A stretch of 10,040 nt of DNA from Nitrospinae bacterium RIFCSPLOWO2_12_FULL_45_22 (GTDB taxonomy: Bacteria > 2-12-FULL-45-22), in assembly GCA_001803565.1 (NCBI GenBank), contig MHDQ01000003.1, positions 1 to 10,040 of the forward strand, read 5' to 3'. Position 1 is the first letter of the stretch, and each line of letters begins with the position of its first letter. The notes under the pieces were generated by a model. The model had not been told where the DNA came from. It was given only the letters and a program-made list of their open reading frames with translations, and did not search any database. Position numbers and translations under genes: made by a program. Shown here one piece after another: positions 1 to 10,040 of the stretch.

Positions 1-1126
1 CAATCACCCGTTGGATCTGATTTGTTCCATCAATGATCTGGGTAGATTTGGCATCGCGCATCATCCGCTCTACGGGATAATCCTTCATATAGCCATAAGC
101 GCCTAATATCTGCACGGCGTCAGTAGTGACCCTCAGGGCTATATCCGAGGCAAAGCATTTAGCTATACAGACCATGGTCTCTTGTTCTTTCTTAGTGCCC
201 TGATTCTGGTCAATCATAACCGCAATCCGCCAGATCAGGGATCTAGCTGCTTCTATGCCGATTTTCATATCTGCCAGCATAAACCTGACCGCCTGAAAAT
301 CGGCAATAGGTCTGCTAAACTGCCTCCGTTCCTGGGCATAGGTCATGGCATACTCATAAGCCCCTTCAGCAAGCCCCAGGGATACCGAGGCAACTCCCCA
401 GACCCGCATCTGATTACCGACCTCGGTAAGGATCCGCCACCCATCCCCCTCTTTTCCCAGACGGTTCTCTTTAGGTACTATGGCGTCCTGGAAGATAAGT
501 TCTGCGGTAATAGAACCCCGCAGACCCATCTTGTTCTCCTTTTTCCCTATAGTAAACCCAGACGTCCCTTTCTCGACGATAAAGCCACTGATCCCTTTAG
601 AGCGCTCCCCAGGGCCGGTACGGACAAAGACCAGATAATAATGAGCAACATCGGCAGTAGTGATAAATAGCTTGGTCCCATTCATGATGTAGTTGGGTCC
701 TTGAAGAACGGCTTTAGTCTGTAAACTACCAGCATCAGAGCCATAACCGGGCTCAGTTAGGGCAAAGGCCCCCAGCCTATTACCCCGACTGAAGCCAGTG
801 AAAAATCGCTTCTTTTGCTCATCATTACCGGCAGCTTTTATTACCCGGATGACCGATTGAGTAGAGAAAACCATCAGGGCAGAGGCGGGGGATACTTTAG
901 AGATTTCTTCAATAATCAGCGATAAAGTCAGGCTGTCGCAATTAATACCCCCATATTCTTCCGGCAAGGACAGCTTGAAGAGACCATTCTCTACGAAGGC
1001 TTCAAAACACTCCTCAGGGAAATCCTCTGTCTCATCAATCCTGGCTGCTATAGGGCCAACCTTATCCTGCACTAATTGCCTCACCATCTGACGGATCATC
1101 TCTTGTTCTTCTGTCAACTGATACAC
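1..1126 (-). CDS. Acyl-CoA dehydrogenase, 3'-truncated by the window edge
   Basis: FAD-dependent alpha,beta-dehydrogenation of an acyl-CoA, passing electrons to electron-transfer flavoprotein in the cytoplasm. About 375 residues are visible on the minus strand and the C-terminus is off the left edge. Family signatures in order (numbered from an ATG at 1141): LPEEYGG near 59-65, ALTEPGYGSD near 127-136, the ERRQFSRPI helix at 271-279, FQAVRFMLADM, and a C-terminal block with GAYGYMKDYPVERMMRDAK followed by IIDGTNQIQR. The catalytic Glu of the usual YEGT(N/S)QIQR motif is Asp (codon GAT) here; the alternative Glu position used by isovaleryl-CoA dehydrogenase appears to be Met. I chose GTG at 1126 because AAGGAGGG lies just upstream (1138-1131); an in-frame ATG at 1141 has a poorer ribosome site. 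Substrate is not deducible: fatty, branched or cyclic acyl-CoA are all possible. Family assignment is very secure. Confidence 0.95.
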   Translation of the reverse strand, partial: MYQLTEEQEMIRQMVRQLVQDKVGPIAARIDETEDFPEECFEAFVENGLFKLSLPEEYGGINCDSLTLSLIIEEISKVSPASALMVFSTQSVIRVIKAAGNDEQKKRFFTGFSRGNRLGAFALTEPGYGSDAGSLQTKAVLQGPNYIMNGTKLFITTADVAHYYLVFVRTGPGERSKGISGFIVEKGTSGFTIGKKENKMGLRGSITAELIFQDAIVPKENRLGKEGDGWRILTEVGNQMRVWGVASVSLGLAEGAYEYAMTYAQERRQFSRPIADFQAVRFMLADMKIGIEAARSLIWRIAVMIDQNQGTKKEQETMVCIAKCFASDIALRVTTDAVQILGAYGYMKDYPVERMMRDAKSTQIIDGTNQIQRVI

Positions 1127-1141
1127 CTGTCCCTCCTTCAT

Positions 1142-1459
1142 CACCTTGTGTTAGTCAATAGGTTCATACCGCCGAAAATAAATGCAGGTAATCTATTCAT
1201 ACTATTTAAGGTCTGACCCGCTCAACAAGGCACGAATAAATCCATGCCCATAATAAACTAAACAAGATTTATTTTAGAAAGACTTAGGGGGCCAGATTTG
1301 TCTAATATACAGCCTTTGATTAAGAATAGTCAATCGCAGTTCATTCAGGAGCACTTTAATAAGACAGATATTATATCCTAGCCTGTAACAGTTCAGGTTC
1401 TTTGTCATTTCGAGCGCTTGGTTACTTTACTCTTAGGGGCTTCTTTTCTTTTAAATTTT
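1142..1459. other. Gene-free stretch between divergent genes
   Basis: No convincing coding frame or stable RNA was seen on either strand. The stretch separates the divergent acyl-CoA dehydrogenase and pgpH units. It holds the candidate minus-strand promoter near 1200 and, at about 1403-1416, a short GTCATTTCGAGCG-like string that resembles the end of interspersed repeats seen in many genomes. That string is too short to call a repeat here. Confidence 0.5.
1199..1228 (-). promoter_or_regulatory. Candidate sigma-70 promoter for the acyl-CoA dehydrogenase
   Basis: On the minus strand TTGTTG (1228-1223) and TAGTAT (1204-1199) are separated by 18 bases. They lie about 70 bases upstream of the acyl-CoA dehydrogenase start. 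Both hexamers are imperfect, so this is a weak prediction. Confidence 0.3.
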
Positions 1460-1620: not shown

Positions 1621-3885
1621 TTGGCAAGTAAAGATAAAGCCCGAAAGGGAAAGATAGACACTAAGATCAAAGATCGCCCTGCTATTATACATTCTTACAA
1701 ATTAAGGATTCGTTGGGCTTTAGGCATCTCTGCCGTTCTCATCTTATTGTTTCTAGCCTTTTTCGACCGCTTCTTATTTCCTATAGCATATCCCAAATTA
1801 GGTGAACCCGCCCCGCAAACTATCAGAGCCCCATATGATTTTTATTTTGATGAGAAAGCGGCCTTTGAGAAGGCAACGAAGGAAGAGATGGAGAACTTTA
1901 TCCCCATCTTTATCCAGGATCAAAGGTCACAGAGGGACTTAATAGAACGGGTAAAATCGTTAATTGAAGCGACAAAACAAATTCAGTCTGATAAATCCCT
2001 CAGCGAGCGAAGGAAATTGGAGAGGTTAAAACAAGTCTTCTCCTTGAAAAGGACTACTGAGGGCATAAGAAAATTGCTGAAATATGGCCAGCTCGAAGAG
2101 CTAGGAGAAATCTTGATCTCTGAAGTAATTACCCCTATTGTCTCGAAAGGTATTATTACCGATAAAGACCTCCTCAGCAAAGAGGAATTGCGTATCCGTA
2201 GCCCTGATAGTGATGATACTGGCTTTAAAAAGGTCCCTGCCAGAGAGATATATACCCTCTCTCAGGCTAAAGGCTTATTCCGGAATAGAATGGAGAAACT
2301 CCTCTTCAATCTTGATCCAGAAATAACCGATTTATTGACCTCGACGATCCAGCAATATATTTCCCCTAACCTACGCTATTCAGAAGAAAATGCTAAGGAG
2401 ATGAAAAAGCTCTCTGAAAAGACCTCGAACCGGCTGGTTTTTTATCGCCGGGGGGATATCCTTTTGCGATCTGGCAGCCCGGTTAGCCGGGTAGATATTT
2501 TTAGACTTGAGGCCTGTAATAAACAGAAAGTGCTCCCCTATTGGGTTAGTGCCCTGGGAACTTTCCTGCCTCTACTTATCCTAACTTTTTTGTTTATTAT
2601 CTATCTCTCCCATTTTCATACCTATACCTTTTCCTATACCCAAAACTATGTCTTTATATTCCTAACCCTCTTAATCCTTATAGTAATAGCAAAGATCATT
2701 ACCCTATTCACCAGTTTTTCTGGTTATATTCTACCAGTCTCTATGGTGGGCATATTGATTACCTCAATAATGAATAGACGGATAGCCCTAATAACTACCC
2801 TGCTCGCTGCCCTGTATATAACTTATCTTACTAATTTTCAGCTTGCCCTTTTTGTCTTCTATGTTATCAGTGGGACATTAGGTATCTGGGTAGGAATGAG
2901 GGCCCATAAGCGGGGAAATTTATTTCTATATTCCTTATTGCTAGGGGTCGGCAACGTAGTGGTTTTCCTGTGCTGCCAGGCGATGGGAGATACTTTTGAT
3001 TATAAAGCCAATAAGATTATTCTCTTCCAGGGGTCTGCCGAGGCCTTTTTTAATGGGGTGCTGGCATGGTTCATGATATTATTAATAACACCTTTCTTTG
3101 AGAAGGTCTTTGGCATGGCCTCTACCTATAGATTGTTAGAGCTTTCTGATCTCAATGGTCCCCTCTTAAAAAAGTTACAAGAAAAAGCCCCGGGGACTTA
3201 TTATCACAGCATTGAAGTAGGAAACCTGGCAGCGGCCGCAGCCGATGCCATTGGAGCTAACTCATTATTAGTAAGGGTTGCCGGCTATTATCACGATATA
3301 GGCAAGATGATTCGGCCCAATTATTTTGTAGAAAATCTAGGTGGAGGAGAAAATCCCCATAATTCTTTATCGTTGGCCATGAGTTCCCATATCCTCCGCT
3401 CCCATGTGAAGGAAGGGATTGAGATTGCCAAAGAATATACCCTCCCGCAGAGGATTATTGACCTGATTTTCCAGCATCACGGCACATCAGTTATGGGTTT
3501 TTTCTATCACAAGGCCAGGGATAATGGACTTGAAGAGGTTTTATCCGAGGATTTCTTCCGCTACGATGGCCCTAAACCGGTCAGTGTAGAAGCTGGTTTA
3601 CTCCTTATTGCCGATGCAGTCGAGGCAGCATCCCGATCCTTAAAGAATCCCACTTATATAAAAACAGAGGAGATGGTAAAAGAAGTCGTTAAAGAGAAGT
3701 TTGCTGATGGCCAATTTGATGAATGTCAGATTACTGGTAAAGAAATTAATAAGGTAATCAATACCCTTACTAATAGCTTGATGAGCTATTCCCATTTAAG
3801 GATAGAATATCCCAAGGCAGCGGAAAAGGTCAAGGCTACTAACGCTAATGCCGGGGTACGCGAGGAAGTTAAGCAGGCATTATGA
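1621..3885 (+). CDS. pgpH: PgpH-type 7TM-HD membrane phosphodiesterase (probable c-di-AMP hydrolase)
   Basis: Probable inner-membrane phosphodiesterase that hydrolyses cyclic di-AMP to pApA in the cytoplasm, by analogy with Listeria PgpH. Architecture of the 754 residues: basic N-terminus, first membrane helix about 33-55, a large extracytoplasmic 7TMR-HDED region about 57-300, a multi-helix membrane block about 308-495, and a C-terminal HD domain about 510-735. Metal-binding candidates are H529 (YYHS), H558-D559 (YYHDIGK), H590, H619-H620 (FQHHG) and D665 (IADAVEAA), so the metal-ligand set looks intact. The length is normal for the family. The start is TTG, decided by AAAGGA at 1607-1612 with an 8-base spacer. 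In related bacteria the gene often sits between phoH and ybeY, but neither is visible here. The stop overlaps an ATGA whose frame ends after 7 codons. Fold assignment is secure; the nucleotide substrate is inferred from family. Confidence 0.93.
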   Translation: MASKDKARKGKIDTKIKDRPAIIHSYKLRIRWALGISAVLILLFLAFFDRFLFPIAYPKLGEPAPQTIRAPYDFYFDEKAAFEKATKEEMENFIPIFIQDQRSQRDLIERVKSLIEATKQIQSDKSLSERRKLERLKQVFSLKRTTEGIRKLLKYGQLEELGEILISEVITPIVSKGIITDKDLLSKEELRIRSPDSDDTGFKKVPAREIYTLSQAKGLFRNRMEKLLFNLDPEITDLLTSTIQQYISPNLRYSEENAKEMKKLSEKTSNRLVFYRRGDILLRSGSPVSRVDIFRLEACNKQKVLPYWVSALGTFLPLLILTFLFIIYLSHFHTYTFSYTQNYVFIFLTLLILIVIAKIITLFTSFSGYILPVSMVGILITSIMNRRIALITTLLAALYITYLTNFQLALFVFYVISGTLGIWVGMRAHKRGNLFLYSLLLGVGNVVVFLCCQAMGDTFDYKANKIILFQGSAEAFFNGVLAWFMILLITPFFEKVFGMASTYRLLELSDLNGPLLKKLQEKAPGTYYHSIEVGNLAAAAADAIGANSLLVRVAGYYHDIGKMIRPNYFVENLGGGENPHNSLSLAMSSHILRSHVKEGIEIAKEYTLPQRIIDLIFQHHGTSVMGFFYHKARDNGLEEVLSEDFFRYDGPKPVSVEAGLLLIADAVEAASRSLKNPTYIKTEEMVKEVVKEKFADGQFDECQITGKEINKVINTLTNSLMSYSHLRIEYPKAAEKVKATNANAGVREEVKQAL

Positions 3886-4341: not shown

Positions 4342-4728
4342 TTATTTTTTGATATAAAGCTTGCTTAGCACCTGATCAACTTGATCTGCCGTAAGCGATC
4401 CATTGGCAAGCAAAATTTGTCCTAATAGTCTATGGCGATTTTGAGTCAAATTTTCTTCTAGTTGTCTATTTAACGCCTCCAGCAGTTTTTCTCTCGTGAT
4501 GAATCCCATTTTGACGGCCATCTCTCCGAAATGGGCATCTCTATAGGCCACTTTGGTAGCTGCCAATCCGCTTTTTTCCGAGACTAATGTCTTGATATAT
4601 TCTTTTAGCTTCCTTTGCTCTTTAGCAGGCAGTTTCTCCAACGCATATTTCCATGTGTCTAACATATCTTGAAGGGTTAACTTGTTTAAAAGGGAAAGTA
4701 TCTCTGAAATAGAACTTTTTTGACCCAT
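4342..4728 (-). CDS. Small protein with two MshEN-like (GspE N-terminal-like) repeats
   Basis: A cytoplasmic-looking 128-residue protein with no signal peptide or membrane helix. Residues 1-60 look mainly helical and charged. Residues 66-89 (FGEMAVKMGFIT..KLLEAL..Q) and 101-124 (LLGQILLANGSLT..QV..VL) each follow the 24-residue pattern LGxxLxxxGxxT/SxxxLxxxLxxQ of type II secretion ATPase and MshEN N-terminal domains, which bind c-di-GMP in some proteins. Here the spacer is about 11 residues, longer than classical MshEN, and the ligand-binding Arg at the first motif position is His or Leu. Nucleotide binding is therefore uncertain. No ATPase domain is attached. The ATG is preceded by AAGGGG seven bases away, and a good promoter lies just upstream. 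It reads as a monocistron. Fold similarity is an inference from pattern alone. Confidence 0.75.
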   Translation of the reverse strand: MGQKSSISEILSLLNKLTLQDMLDTWKYALEKLPAKEQRKLKEYIKTLVSEKSGLAATKVAYRDAHFGEMAVKMGFITREKLLEALNRQLEENLTQNRHRLLGQILLANGSLTADQVDQVLSKLYIKK

Positions 4729-5084: not shown

Positions 5085-5909
5085 GTGAGACGATATTCAA
5101 TACTTATTATTCTAATAATCCTTCTCTTTACATTCTGGATTGTTTACAGCCTTGTTACCAATCCCCACCGCTTCTCAGAAGGTGAATGCCCCAAGTGCCA
5201 TGTAAAAAAGCCTTCAAAGACAGATAAAAAGAATTCTGCATTAATGACCGCGCCCATAAGCATACTATGTGGAGAATGTCATGCAGCCATAGCAGAAACA
5301 TATTCGCATCCCATAAACATAGTCCCTGAGAAGGTAAGGATTCCAAAGGACTTGCCTCTCTCCTTCGAAGGTCTTCTTACTTGCAGTACTTGTCATAATA
5401 TCCATTCCTCCTCAGTAACACCCATGGGAACCCCTTCACTTTTTCTGAGACGCATTGCTTCTGGGAGGAGTTTTTGTATCATCTGCCATATAGAGCAGAG
5501 ATTAAGTCATAAAACTACCGTTACAGAAGCCCACATGCAATCCCGGTTTATTGAAATCGAATCGTCCAGGACGATTGACCCTATGTCAGCAGATTGCGTA
5601 TCCTGTCATGATGGTTCCTATGCCACATCGGTCAGTATACAAGCTGGGCTCTGGCTGCATAATAAAGATTTTATAAGATTTGATAAGGGGAGTCATCCTA
5701 TCGGAATTGACCACGAGATGGCTCGAACCCGCGAAAAGAGAAAAACTGACCTTAAACCCCTCAGCATGGTTGATCCCCGCATAAAATTCTTTGGAGGAAA
5801 GATAGGTTGTGGTACATGTCATGACCCTTATTCTCCTGACAGGGGACAGCTTGTAATGAGTAATGAGGGCAGTAGATTATGCCTGGAATGCCATCTGGTT
5901 GACCAATAA
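5085..5909 (+). CDS. Membrane-anchored seven-haem c-type cytochrome
   Basis: Probable periplasmic electron carrier attached to the inner membrane. The 274 residues begin with MRRYS and a hydrophobic stretch (about 5-24) without a convincing cleavage site, so it likely stays as an N-terminal anchor. Seven CXXCH haem sites are present: C35, C62, C100, C131, C171, C242 and C266 (first cysteine of each). HPI/HPIG histidines near 75 and 204 and other spare histidines could be distal ligands. The CVSCHDGSYA block followed by GSHPIGIDHE is typical of doubled-CXXCH family cytochromes. The GTG start is forced by an in-frame TAA immediately upstream, yet no Shine-Dalgarno is visible. The 15-haem gene follows about 0.2 kb downstream on the same strand. 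Cytochrome identity is certain; partner and redox role are inferred. Confidence 0.93.
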   Translation: MRRYSILIILIILLFTFWIVYSLVTNPHRFSEGECPKCHVKKPSKTDKKNSALMTAPISILCGECHAAIAETYSHPINIVPEKVRIPKDLPLSFEGLLTCSTCHNIHSSSVTPMGTPSLFLRRIASGRSFCIICHIEQRLSHKTTVTEAHMQSRFIEIESSRTIDPMSADCVSCHDGSYATSVSIQAGLWLHNKDFIRFDKGSHPIGIDHEMARTREKRKTDLKPLSMVDPRIKFFGGKIGCGTCHDPYSPDRGQLVMSNEGSRLCLECHLVDQ

Positions 5910-5936
5910 GGAATTTACCATCATACTGTAGGTGAA

Positions 5937-6015
5937 GTCATTGGCCATTAGTCATAGGTCATTGGTTAATGCAGGATTACAAGGCTTTGACCTAATGACG
6001 AATGACCAGTGACTA
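5937..6015. repeat. Inverted-repeat element of TCATTGG/CCAATGA-type motifs
   Basis: The left arm (5937-5966) contains repeated GTCAT(T/A)GG-like units: GTCATTGG, TTAGTCATAGG and GTCATTGGT. The right arm (5989-6015) contains the same motifs on the opposite strand (CCTAATGACG, AATGACCAGTGACTAA). The arms pair imperfectly around a loop of roughly 22 bases. This looks like a short interspersed palindromic element between the two plus-strand cytochrome genes. It could act as an attenuator or mRNA-stabilising stem that sets their relative expression. Confidence 0.55.
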
Positions 6016-6067
6016 AAAACGTTCACTACATATTAATCGTAGGACAGGAAGAAAAAATTTTATAGGT

Positions 6068-6073
6068 AGGAGG
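6068..6073 (+). promoter_or_regulatory. Strong ribosome-binding site pointing to a CTG start at 6081
   Basis: AGGAGG is the only good Shine-Dalgarno upstream of the 15-haem cytochrome. It lies 34 bases before the ATG at 6108 but exactly 7 bases before an in-frame CTG at 6081. Starting there adds nine residues (MQHFCDKKF), which supply the two lysines a signal peptide n-region normally needs. Confidence 0.5.
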
Positions 6074-6107
6074 AATACCACTGCAGCATTTCTGCGATAA
6101 AAAGTTC

Positions 6108-7430
6108 ATGATAGATCCCTTGCTAATACCCCTGGTTTTTTTTATGACCGTCCTTATTTCTCTTTGCCCACCCCTTATCCCTATCGTTGAAGCACAGGAT
6201 GGTTGTGTCACCCAAAAATGCCATAGCACAATGTTGAAAGGGAAATCGGTTCACCCGGGCGCCGATCCCTGCGAGGGATGTCATGAGGCAACTGATACCA
6301 CTCATCCGGTGAAGGGGAAAAAGACTTTTAAACTCCTGCAGGAACCGCCTGATCTCTGCTATACGTGTCATGATGCGTTCGGTACCGGAGAGGGTATGAA
6401 GCTACACTCACCGGTTGAGGAAGGAACGTGTACCGTTTGCCATAACCCCCACCAATCTGATCAGGAGAAATTACTGGTCCAGCCCATGGGTGATCTCTGC
6501 TTTGGTTGCCACGAAAACAATATATCCGATGCGTCTGTTCATGGACCAGCGGGAGTTGGCTCATGCACCGAATGCCATAATCCCCACCAATCGAAATATG
6601 ATAAGCTGAGGGTCGAGGAAGGTGAAAAGCTCTGTTTCCTCTGCCATGCTGACATTCAAGAGGATTTGAAAAAAGGTCATGTACACACGGCTGTGACGAT
6701 GGGCTGCCCATCCTGCCATAATCCCCATAGTGGGCCTTACAAAATGATGCTTCCGGCTGATGGCAAAGATCTCTGCTTCCAATGCCACTCTGATATCTCT
6801 GACATAATAAAAAAGGCCAAGATTATTCATCCACCCATACAAACTGAACGGTCCTGTGTATCCTGTCATTCCCCACATGCCGGTAAGACCGAGAAACTTA
6901 CCGACAAGATGGGGAAGGACCTGTGCCTGGAATGCCACAAAGGCATCATAGGAACGTCTGACCAGAATCTACATGGCCCGATAAAGCAGGGAGCCTGTGT
7001 TGCTTGTCATGATCCCCACGGCACCCCTAACGACAAATTGTTGAAGAAACATTATGTCATGGATTATTATGCCCCCTATAACGATACCAATTACGAGCTG
7101 TGTTTTAGCTGCCATGACAAAGAGCTACTCCGTTTTCCCGACACATCCTTTGCAACCAATTTCAGGGATGGTCAGAGAAATCTTCACTATCTGCACGTTA
7201 ACAGGAAGAAGAAGAGCCGGACCTGTAGATTCTGCCACGAACCCCATTCATCAAAGAATCCCAAGTTAATCAGGAATTATATTCAGTTTGAGCAATGGAG
7301 ACTTCCGACAAATTTTGAAAAGACAGAAACCGGTGGTACCTGTACGCCGGGGTGTCATAAAAAGGTTATCTATGACCGGGAAACGCCTGGCAAAGAGCCT
7401 GAAAAACCGCCTAAGACGCTTCCCCCCTAA
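6108..7430 (+). CDS. Secreted fifteen-haem doubled-CXXCH cytochrome c
   Basis: Large exported electron-transfer protein, periplasmic, outer-membrane or extracellular. The 440 residues (from ATG 6108) start with a hydrophobic signal segment ending near VEA-Q at 29-30. Fifteen haem sites are visible: thirteen CXXCH (C55, C84, C108, C131, C153, C176, C200, C223, C250, C273, C297, C332, C373), one CX4CH at C33 and one CX3CH at C412. From about 83 to 340 it is built of tandem units of roughly 45-50 residues, each with a LCFxCH haem followed by a CxxCHNPHxS haem, the hallmark of doubled-CXXCH proteins. The tail is proline/lysine-rich (about 424-440). The first residues lack positive charge, so the true start may be CTG 6081 (see the ribosome-site entry). 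Its stop is only 9 bases from that of the convergent 12-haem gene. Family is certain; electron donor and acceptor are unknown. Confidence 0.94.
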   Translation: MIDPLLIPLVFFMTVLISLCPPLIPIVEAQDGCVTQKCHSTMLKGKSVHPGADPCEGCHEATDTTHPVKGKKTFKLLQEPPDLCYTCHDAFGTGEGMKLHSPVEEGTCTVCHNPHQSDQEKLLVQPMGDLCFGCHENNISDASVHGPAGVGSCTECHNPHQSKYDKLRVEEGEKLCFLCHADIQEDLKKGHVHTAVTMGCPSCHNPHSGPYKMMLPADGKDLCFQCHSDISDIIKKAKIIHPPIQTERSCVSCHSPHAGKTEKLTDKMGKDLCLECHKGIIGTSDQNLHGPIKQGACVACHDPHGTPNDKLLKKHYVMDYYAPYNDTNYELCFSCHDKELLRFPDTSFATNFRDGQRNLHYLHVNRKKKSRTCRFCHEPHSSKNPKLIRNYIQFEQWRLPTNFEKTETGGTCTPGCHKKVIYDRETPGKEPEKPPKTLPP

Positions 7431-7439
7431 TGACGGCTT

Positions 7440-9155
7440 CTAATATGCAAAGTCCCCGGTACCGGTATGGTCTTCACTGTGGCACCTGAGGGTACAACTA
7501 CCCGACCTGTTGCCATTATCCGTGAAGAACGGCACCAGTTGCCCAGGAAGGGGTTCGACTATGTTGGTATCAAAATTTATCAGGTGGGTATGCGAACCTG
7601 AAGCTGGGTCCTCACGTACCCCATGAGGATCATGGCATGCAGAGCATGGGACTTGCTCCTCGCTGATATGCTCATTATGCTCCGGGAAGCTTTCATCAGC
7701 AAGAATACTGTCCCGGTTATGACATCTATAACAGAGGGCGAAGCTTTCATAACTCTCCGGGGTAAAATCATTGATTTCATACCTCTCTCTCAAGATAGGC
7801 GCAAAGCTTGACCCATGGGCCCCCCTTGCTCCAGAGCCACCTACCTTAGGGCTGCTATCACTGTCGTGACAGTCCGTGCAATAGATAATGTTTGATGGCA
7901 GAAGAGTAGGTTCCAGGGCGGAAGGTATACTCGGAACGTCAGGGTTCTTTCCGATACCTGCCACGGGATGATAGGAAGGGTTATTCAGGGAAAACTCTAT
8001 CCTGGTATTGGGCTCATCGACAACCCGCTGCACATAAGATAGCTGTGAATTGGTATCAGCATGACACTTAAAGCATACCTCGTACTGATACCTCGCAGGA
8101 TCGCTGACTACCCCATCCCTGTCTATACCCTTCATCTTTTCCAGGCTGCCCGATATATCGGGGGCCTCGGCTGCTCTTTCATTATGCGCGTGGGGATTGT
8201 GACAGTCCACACACTCCACATGGCCGGATATAAGGGGGTTTTCATCCGGCTCATGTATTCCTATGGTATTTTCTACCGGATGGTGTGATGCCTTCTCAAA
8301 ATCCGCCATTACATTTTTAGAAGCCACATTCCCATTATGACAGGGAAAACAGTTCCATTCTTCCTCTGCGTAACTAAGCAATCTCTTGGGTTCCCCTGCA
8401 GTATGGGGCATATGGCAGTTCTGGCACCCATTCTCTGCCACGGTAAGCCACTCCGTGAAAGGCCAGGGGTCAGGAGGTGTGCCGTTCCAGGTAGCACCAG
8501 ATATTGCCTTTGGGGAATTTAACCACCCATCCATTTTATGGCATTTGATACATAATGCCGCGTATCGATTATCCATGACCAGAAATTTACACTCGTAACC
8601 CTTATCACAGTGATTGTCCTCGTGCGCATCGTGACAGGTAGAACACTCTATGCTGAAATTACCATAAAATATCAGTCTCGGGTCATTCGGGGGGGGCGAG
8701 ACAATCTCGGGGTCAATCGTGGAATCGAGATAAGAAAAGGAGATCGGGTGATCATCCGCCAGGTCAGTCCCTATATCTGACCGCCTTTCAGGGGTTATCT
8801 CACCTGTAGTCGTTACCTTGCCGGTGAGGAGGGCACCGAGGGCGATCAAACCATCATGGCAAGTCAGGCATAACCTGGAAGGGCCCATGGGTTGCGTGGG
8901 GATTGCCTGAAGGGTTGAGCTTTCATAGAGGATGTAATTTACTGGCTCTACTTCCTTGTTCCAGAGGGGCGTTTGAGGTGAAGCATTATGCGGGGTATGG
9001 CAGAAGACACAGACCCGCTCCTCGGACAATGCCTTCAATTCCCCAGGGCCTGATACAGAGAGGTTATGCCTGGTGGTAAGGATTGAGGCATTTATGTTTG
9101 ACAACAGGACATATAGATGAAAGAAACCCGTTAATAAGATAATATATTGCCTCAC
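7440..9155 (-). CDS. Secreted twelve-haem cytochrome c (HNLS...CVFCHTPHN family)
   Basis: Exported multihaem cytochrome of 571 residues. A signal peptide (about 1-23, with NINA-S as a possible cleavage site) is followed by TTRHNLSVSGPG and the first haem in CVFCHTPHNA, a signature shared by many anaerobe cytochromes of this type. There are eleven CXXCH sites (C49, C96, C171, C202, C244, C269, C315, C361, C426, C475, C504) and a C-terminal CX3CH at C554. HPI/HPV histidines near 136, 292 and 396 are candidate distal ligands. Two extra cysteines (C183, C189) sit between haems 3 and 4 and may form a disulfide. The GTG start overlaps the stop of the upstream NHL gene in GTGA and is preceded by AGGGGG nine bases away, so translation is probably coupled. 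Spacing is sparser than in the convergent 15-haem protein, suggesting larger loops. Family is secure, role inferred. Confidence 0.94.
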   Translation of the reverse strand: MRQYIILLTGFFHLYVLLSNINASILTTRHNLSVSGPGELKALSEERVCVFCHTPHNASPQTPLWNKEVEPVNYILYESSTLQAIPTQPMGPSRLCLTCHDGLIALGALLTGKVTTTGEITPERRSDIGTDLADDHPISFSYLDSTIDPEIVSPPPNDPRLIFYGNFSIECSTCHDAHEDNHCDKGYECKFLVMDNRYAALCIKCHKMDGWLNSPKAISGATWNGTPPDPWPFTEWLTVAENGCQNCHMPHTAGEPKRLLSYAEEEWNCFPCHNGNVASKNVMADFEKASHHPVENTIGIHEPDENPLISGHVECVDCHNPHAHNERAAEAPDISGSLEKMKGIDRDGVVSDPARYQYEVCFKCHADTNSQLSYVQRVVDEPNTRIEFSLNNPSYHPVAGIGKNPDVPSIPSALEPTLLPSNIIYCTDCHDSDSSPKVGGSGARGAHGSSFAPILRERYEINDFTPESYESFALCYRCHNRDSILADESFPEHNEHISEEQVPCSACHDPHGVREDPASGSHTHLINFDTNIVEPLPGQLVPFFTDNGNRSGSCTLRCHSEDHTGTGDFAY

Positions 9156-10040
9156 TGCAGTGCGCCCCCTTCTATCTTGAAGACCTGTATCCTTCTATTG
9201 TAAGTATCGCAAACATAAAGATAATGTTTTTGGTCAATAAAACATCCAGAAGGGAGCCAGAATTCTCCCATATCGGTACCCCGCTGCCCAACGGTCAGGA
9301 GCAATCGTCCTTCTCGATTAAATAATTGCACATTATCAAAGAGGCTATCAACCATATAGATAACCCCGCTTTCATCGACTGCAATACCCTTCGGCATGGC
9401 AAAATCACCCGATCCATCCCCATGATGGCCGAACCTGGCTACAAATTTCCCATCCGCGTTAAATATCTGAACCCGGAAATTCATGGCATCGGTTACGTAC
9501 AATAACCCTTTTTGATCACAGAAAATATAGGTAGGAAAGTTAAACCTTCCCTCCGCGGTCCCCCTCCCTCCAAAGGATGAGATAAATCTTCCCTCCATAT
9601 CAAATATATGTATCTTATGCCACGCGGTATCAGCAACATAGAGCTTATCTCCAGGAGCATTGCAGGCAAGTGCTGTGGGCCGCTTTAATCTGCCATCCGT
9701 TGTTTCCTTGATAGAGAGGATATAACGGCCATTCCGGTCAAAGATATGCACCTGGGCGGTAAAAGAATCAGAGACGAAGAGTCTCAGGTCTTTATCAAAT
9801 GCCACACCAACCGGGAAAGCAAGTTCCTCTCCTTTTCGTGTCGCTGTAATCCGTAAATATCTCTGCTCTTCTGCACCATAAAAATGGACCATCCCATTGG
9901 CTGGATCAGCAATCGCCATACTCCCATCACGCCCCACGGTCACAGAAACCGGCTTGACCAGACCATCGATGGCCTTCTTCTGTCCTGAAATCGCCCCCGC
10001 AATCTTACCCCAGATATTCTTCTTTTCACTCTCAAATTTA
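9152..10040 (-). CDS. NHL-repeat six-bladed beta-propeller protein, 5'-truncated by the window edge
   Basis: Beta-propeller protein, probably exported and serving as a scaffold or binding partner for the cytochrome encoded next to it; no enzymatic motif is apparent. About 295 C-terminal residues are visible. The frame stays open through 10040, so the N-terminus and any signal peptide are outside the window; the GTG at 9943 is internal. Six NHL-type blades can be followed, each with a P-x-x-(V/I/L) strand, a D-x-x-G turn and a (A/S/V/T/C)D...(V/I)x(I/V/L)F strand: ADPANGMVHF, SDSFTAQVHIF, ADTAWHKIHIF, TDAMNFRVQIF, VDSLFDNVQLF and CDTYNRRIQVF. The last blade ends at the C-terminus. The stop overlaps the GTG of the 12-haem gene by 3 bases within GTGA. 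NHL proteins are commonly encoded next to multihaem cytochromes in Geobacter-like bacteria. Fold is secure, function inferred. Confidence 0.92.
   Translation of the reverse strand, partial: KFESEKKNIWGKIAGAISGQKKAIDGLVKPVSVTVGRDGSMAIADPANGMVHFYGAEEQRYLRITATRKGEELAFPVGVAFDKDLRLFVSDSFTAQVHIFDRNGRYILSIKETTDGRLKRPTALACNAPGDKLYVADTAWHKIHIFDMEGRFISSFGGRGTAEGRFNFPTYIFCDQKGLLYVTDAMNFRVQIFNADGKFVARFGHHGDGSGDFAMPKGIAVDESGVIYMVDSLFDNVQLFNREGRLLLTVGQRGTDMGEFWLPSGCFIDQKHYLYVCDTYNRRIQVFKIEGGALQ

Follow-up and report, generated by a model that had tools for sequence, protein, structure and literature searches.

A probable Uet-like electron-transfer cluster in a Nitrospinae genome, with an OmcE-like module at the N-terminus of its 12-haem cytochrome

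Introduction

The undecaheme electron transfer (Uet) complex was reportedly first described by Eddie et al. in 2022, from Candidatus Tenderia electrophaga. PMC10734462 lists UetJ with 11 or 12 haems, the tetrahaem UetA, the peptidyl-prolyl isomerase (PPIase) UetB, and the porin UetC, along with the periplasmic trihaems UetDEG and the NHL proteins UetH and UetI. PMC10734462 and PMC13386937 place Uet in Candidatus Tenderia electrophaga, Gallionella, and Leptothrix, and undecahaem conduits are reported in other groundwater genomes (PMC13264449). Here we analysed a window of 10,040 bases from Nitrospinae bacterium RIFCSPLOWO2_12_FULL_45_22, which is the whole of contig C3 (MHDQ01000003.1) in a genome assembly of 321 contigs, 3.67 Mb, and 85% completeness. 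It carries genes for three multihaem cytochromes, A, B, and C, and for one NHL propeller, D (Table 1). We estimate a probability of roughly 75% that D and C form the 3' end of an outer-membrane electron-transfer cluster of Uet-like type. The first four haems of C belong to a module of the OmcE nanowire family, which raises the tentative possibility that C fixes such a wire to the cell.

Among nanowire systems, that of OmcS is said by Shen et al. 2025 to include OscH, a prolyl isomerase, and OscD, which is propeller-like. For the osc (OmcS companion) cluster of Geobacter sulfurreducens, PMC13194489 describes folding, secretion, and morphology genes that accompany the nanowire gene. The assembly and secretion of cytochrome nanowires are unresolved according to a recent review (PMC12307469), and one structural study expressly excluded possible filament tip proteins (PMC9473688).

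Results

An OmcE-like module in the 12-haem cytochrome

A search with phmmer matched residues 22-207 of C to the OmcE nanowire chain 7tfs (E 5.4e-21) and to a chain of 9yuq annotated as a putative multihaem cytochrome (E 4.2e-19). A module profile built from 14 C homologues and five stand-alone tetrahaems reached 7tfs at E 1.4e-45 and 9yuq at 1.8e-39, with OmcS as the next match at 9e-4. Eight invariant His residues are common to the C module and the stand-alone tetrahaems, four of them in CXXCH motifs and four others (H30, H56, H136, and H178 in C), and all eight are also present in OmcE. H30 is nearly invariant within the C homologues alone, where one alignment row ends before it. An OmcE hidden Markov model (HMM) scored the modules at a median of 140 bits, compared with at most 43 for 175 control four-haem windows of other cytochromes. 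Homology thus extends over the whole mature OmcE protein and takes in four haems and four further His, which by sequence places the module in the OmcE family. C as a whole is not an OmcE, as it has 12 haems with the OmcE module inside, whereas the stand-alone proteins are tetrahaems. Chain N of 9yuq is a second solved OmcE homologue, and the entry, with 16 chains, is perhaps another filament.

A profile search with haems 5-12 of C found no close solved relative. The stretch around haems 5-8 shows weak similarity to a DmsE/MtrA model. By the M3 HMM, haems 9-12 are similar to those at the end of the B family, as the best controls, at 40-58 bits, were B-type C-terminal windows (control median 4). 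The last four haems of C (7443-8000, minus strand) and of B (7100-7430, plus strand) are alike, and each stretch ends in a conserved CX3CH. These C-terminal four-haem stretches are possibly a shared terminal domain.

The OmcE-like module is usually accompanied by a separate OmcE-like protein. A stand-alone tetrahaem, counted from open-frame lengths, is present in 15 of the 21 genomes with C, this genome included. On a panel of 98 genomes, one per family, it was found in 4/6 genomes with a full C and 0/92 others; a Fisher test gave about 4e-6 by hand calculation, with genomes that are not independent draws. The presence of an OmcE module in C, together with this co-occurrence, is possibly new.

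Haem motifs and gene overlap in the window

The sequence-only reading of this DNA had counted 34 haem sites, and a recount returned the same figures: seven in A, 15 in B, and 12 in C, from 31 CXXCH motifs and three longer motifs that are conserved in relatives and appear to be genuine haem sites. CXXCH occurs 32 times across the six frames of the window, and 31 of these fall inside the A, B, and C proteins. The one remaining motif lies elsewhere in the same plus-strand frame and the four other frames contain none, so the haem motifs are not a product of chance. The longer motif of C is CTLRCH at residue 554 and is kept in 15/15 aligned homologues; with 11 CXXCH and this invariant CX3CH, C has the haem number of a UetJ.

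B and C are convergent, with stop codons nine bases apart. The stop codon of D (TGA) and the start codon of C (GTG) overlap as GTGA, as the same reading had noticed, which is consistent with translational coupling of the two genes. D matches Pfam NHL at 5.6e-20; its N-terminus is lost at the contig end, and most of its homologues (NHL2) start with lipoprotein signals. No repeats were found in the intergenic stretches.

The cluster upstream of D and C in relatives

Relatives of C turned up at 16 loci when GTDB species contigs were scanned, and whole-genome searches added more. Twenty loci had enough sequence to judge the neighbouring gene, and in 18 of them D is immediately upstream of C. The hosts include Nitrospirota, deltaproteobacterial lineages, Acidobacteria, and Planctomycetes, among others. 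In the two exceptions, a barrel-sized gene sits between D and C (L030), or C is matched over residues 176-563 only and no D was found (L045). A tree of C groups the Nitrospirota and Acidobacteriota copies by phylum and places the window copy without support. C had no match in plasmid records.

The fullest loci have the order tetrahaem, NHL1, pentahaem, barrel, PPIase, NHL2 (D), and C. The whole cluster is present in L034, L035, and L047 (with a partial tetrahaem in L047), most of it in L036 and L042, and shorter stretches in L033, L038, and L041. Just past C, several loci also carry a gene for a sigma-54 response regulator, encoded on the opposite strand. The structural model of the barrel protein, with a predicted local distance difference test (pLDDT) score of 78, shows a large beta-barrel. 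Its best fold match in the PDB is the MtrB chain 6r2q_B (E 4e-9), and the C-terminal ends of the relatives' barrels read RKLF or RRILF. By this model, the barrel is predicted to be an MtrB-like large outer-membrane porin.

These loci change the picture of a closed four-gene unit without a porin that the window had suggested when read by itself. Since the window is a whole contig that ends inside D, the missing porin says nothing about the locus; it is an artefact of the contig end, and in relatives the cluster continues upstream, with the MtrB-like barrel two genes away from D.

Other contigs of the same genome

The ends of two further contigs, C219 and C310, are identical over 80 bases, and an OmcE-like tetrahaem gene is split across that break (L051 12550-13101 and L049 3-350, on C219 and C310). 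This gene would be the counterpart of UetA, on different contigs from C. C219 also contains a four-haem relative of A, a 9-haem protein, and genes related to those for the histidine kinase and sigma-54 regulator of the clusters. C310 encodes proteins with 9, 16, and 11 haems together with an NHL gene and, at its end, a partial NHL1 gene. NHL1 is 55% identical to that of L034, and its orientation fits the missing genes followed by D and C. D in the window and NHL1 on C310 would be the counterparts of UetH and UetI, the linkage of NHL1 to D being seen in relatives only. Most simply, the three contigs belong to one cluster in the order C219, C310, and C3, with about 4 kb missing between C310 and C3; we infer the step across that gap. 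By eye, some of the large 9-, 16-, and 11-haem proteins (L049 4082-15401, L051 9649-12366) have PKD-like or LamG-like C-terminal parts.

The neighbouring cytochromes B and A

The two longer haem motifs of B, CX4CH (CVTQKCH, residue 33) and CX3CH (CTPGCH, residue 412), recur in B homologues wherever those ends are present. B matches the MtrA chain, 6r2q chain A, at E 2e-20. Its score against NCBIfam TIGR03508 (DmsE) is 132.8 bits, with a cut-off of 192.2, and it has 15 haems rather than ten, which leaves it outside that family. A is likewise outside NCBIfam TIGR03153 (NapC/NrfH), at 21 bits against a cut-off of 134.2. The MtrA-like chain A of 6r2q carries the database molecule name 'Cystathionine beta-synthase', apparently a mislabel.

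The sequence-only reading had named unlinking of the four genes in relatives as a refutation, and the outcome is mixed: C and D are tightly linked. B is found near C in about 6/20 loci (its relatives adjoin C or lie close to it in L026, L031, L041, L043, and L047) and A in 2/20, adjoining C in L045. B is a recurrent but optional neighbour of C, and A is a rare one.

Table 1 Features of the electron-transfer genes in the window.
Feature	Position	Strand	Basis
A: 7-haem cytochrome, 274 aa	5085-5909	+	7 CXXCH after one N-terminal hydrophobic segment, a transmembrane anchor
B: 15-haem paired-CXXCH exported cytochrome, MtrA/DmsE-like, 440 aa	6108-7430	+	13 CXXCH + CX4CH + CX3CH
C: 12-haem cytochrome, UetJ-like, 571 aa	7440-9155	-	11 CXXCH + 1 CX3CH
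OmcE-like tetrahaem module of C, residues 22-212	8520-9092	-	phmmer, profile, eight invariant His
8-haem C-terminal part of C, haems 5-12	7443-8519	-	not OmcE-like by HMM
D: NHL six-bladed propeller, UetH/I-like, cut by contig end	9152-10040	-	

Outside the electron-transfer cluster, the window appears by eye to encode an acyl-CoA dehydrogenase (2-1144, minus strand) and a 7TM-HD phosphohydrolase (1621-3885, plus strand). A small protein at 4342-4728 (minus strand) has a cyclic di-GMP-binding MshE-type motif (NF053729, 39.6 bits, cut-off 38).

Discussion

The conserved pairing of D and C, and the genes found upstream of them in relatives, point to a cluster of known type, Uet, with A and B as optional neighbours, rather than a distinct module. 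The sequence-only reading had proposed a distinct extracellular electron-transfer module; the predicted role in extracellular electron transfer is well supported, and it is the distinctness that gives way, as the content largely matches Uet. We use 'Uet-like' rather than assigning full membership because the relatives' clusters hold a pentahaem in place of the three trihaems of Uet.

That substitution is one of several points that weigh against the assignment and against the role proposed below for C. The match to Uet is by gene content and published description. In this genome, which is 85% complete, searches with one query each for the barrel and the PPIase found no match; that it encodes them is predicted from synteny with the relatives. 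Neither C3 nor C310 has an end overlap with another contig at the relevant end. Six of the 21 genomes with C have no detected stand-alone tetrahaem. Finally, an AlphaFold model of C, made with 15 homologues, had a mean pLDDT of 32 and was discarded.

If the cluster works as its parts suggest, the barrel would house a haem chain across the outer membrane, and the tetrahaem would polymerise outside the cell. The PPIase and propellers may fold, export, or shape the cytochromes, by analogy with what is reported of OscH and OscD for OmcS nanowires. C, whose N-terminus holds a single wire unit followed by eight more haems, would stand between conduit and wire as a fixed end. B (MtrA-like, 15 haems) and A (membrane-anchored, seven haems) may bridge the periplasm, taking electrons from the inner membrane or delivering them to it, in metal reduction or in electron uptake. 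We infer the anchor role from a wire unit with complete ligands, the eight additional haems, and the adjoining porin-type and wire-subunit genes. As a tentative proposal, held at less than even odds, C would be the fixed end (or the tip) of an OmcE-type nanowire, its N-terminal unit docking on the tetrahaem polymer through the inter-subunit His and its eight other haems passing electrons to the porin-housed chain.

It may instead be that Uet is a porin-cytochrome conduit only, with the tetrahaem and C as monomeric surface cytochromes whose kinship to OmcE reflects ancestry without polymerisation. This is a serious possibility, though we would not put it at an even chance. Publications treat Uet as a porin-multihaem complex (PMC10734462, PMC13386937), and the genomes with C and no detected tetrahaem fit such a complex. 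On the other hand, all eight His conserved in OmcE are retained both in the tetrahaem and in the N-terminal part of C; one of these serves the neighbouring subunit in OmcE, and the osc nanowire genes are likewise accompanied by folding, secretion, and propeller genes.

Many-haem cytochromes can act as capacitors, and the window genes could serve another respiratory process as an electron store or relay in the periplasm, A and B lying next to C and D by chance. The frequent absence of B and A beside C in relatives agrees with this. We consider it improbable, as C and D stay linked across loci to genes for an MtrB-like barrel and an OmcE-like protein, and relatives of B are again near C in the five loci named above. 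Least credible of all is a covalent OmcE trimer, in which three tandem tetrahaem modules would make C a built-in short wire: haems 5-8 and 9-12 do repeat by eye the CxxCHxPH ... CxxCH ... HP ... CxxCHxPH ... CxxCH order of haems 1-4, but the OmcE and module-1 HMMs rate modules 2 and 3 no better than the 175 control windows, and the profile of haems 5-12 reaches OmcE only at E 0.44.

C joins a wire unit to a larger cytochrome; its gene is nearly always next to that of a propeller and is often accompanied by genes for a porin and a wire subunit, which makes C a candidate for the junction of wire and membrane. If the fixed-end role is correct, Uet would be a complete nanowire-to-outer-membrane junction across several phyla, and C may show how an OmcE-type wire is fixed to the cell.

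Comparison with known systems

The cluster shares parts with several described systems. In common with the MtrCAB and DmsE conduits there are the barrel of the relatives, best matched by MtrB, and B, which matches the MtrA chain of 6r2q; MtrA and DmsE have ten haems, compared with 15 in B. Like the relatives' clusters, the osc cluster places genes for folding, secretion, and morphology beside that of a wire subunit, although OmcS is unlike OmcE in overall sequence and belongs to a different subunit family. Four haems and eight conserved His are common to the OmcE filament of G. sulfurreducens (7tfs), the 9yuq chain, the stand-alone tetrahaems, and residues 22-207 of C; C has eight more haems at its C-terminus, and polymerisation, known for OmcE, is a prediction for the proteins described here. 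The idea of a matching gene set around omcE in Geobacter (GSU0612-0618) proved wrong: GSU0612 is PpcA, and GSU0613-0614 are ResB/ResC-like.

Uet itself differs in the 15-haem B and 7-haem A that lie beside C here, and the hosts are from other phyla. The likeness to Uet lies in the combination of an 11-12-haem cytochrome, a tetrahaem, NHL proteins, and, in the relatives, a PPIase and a beta-barrel porin.

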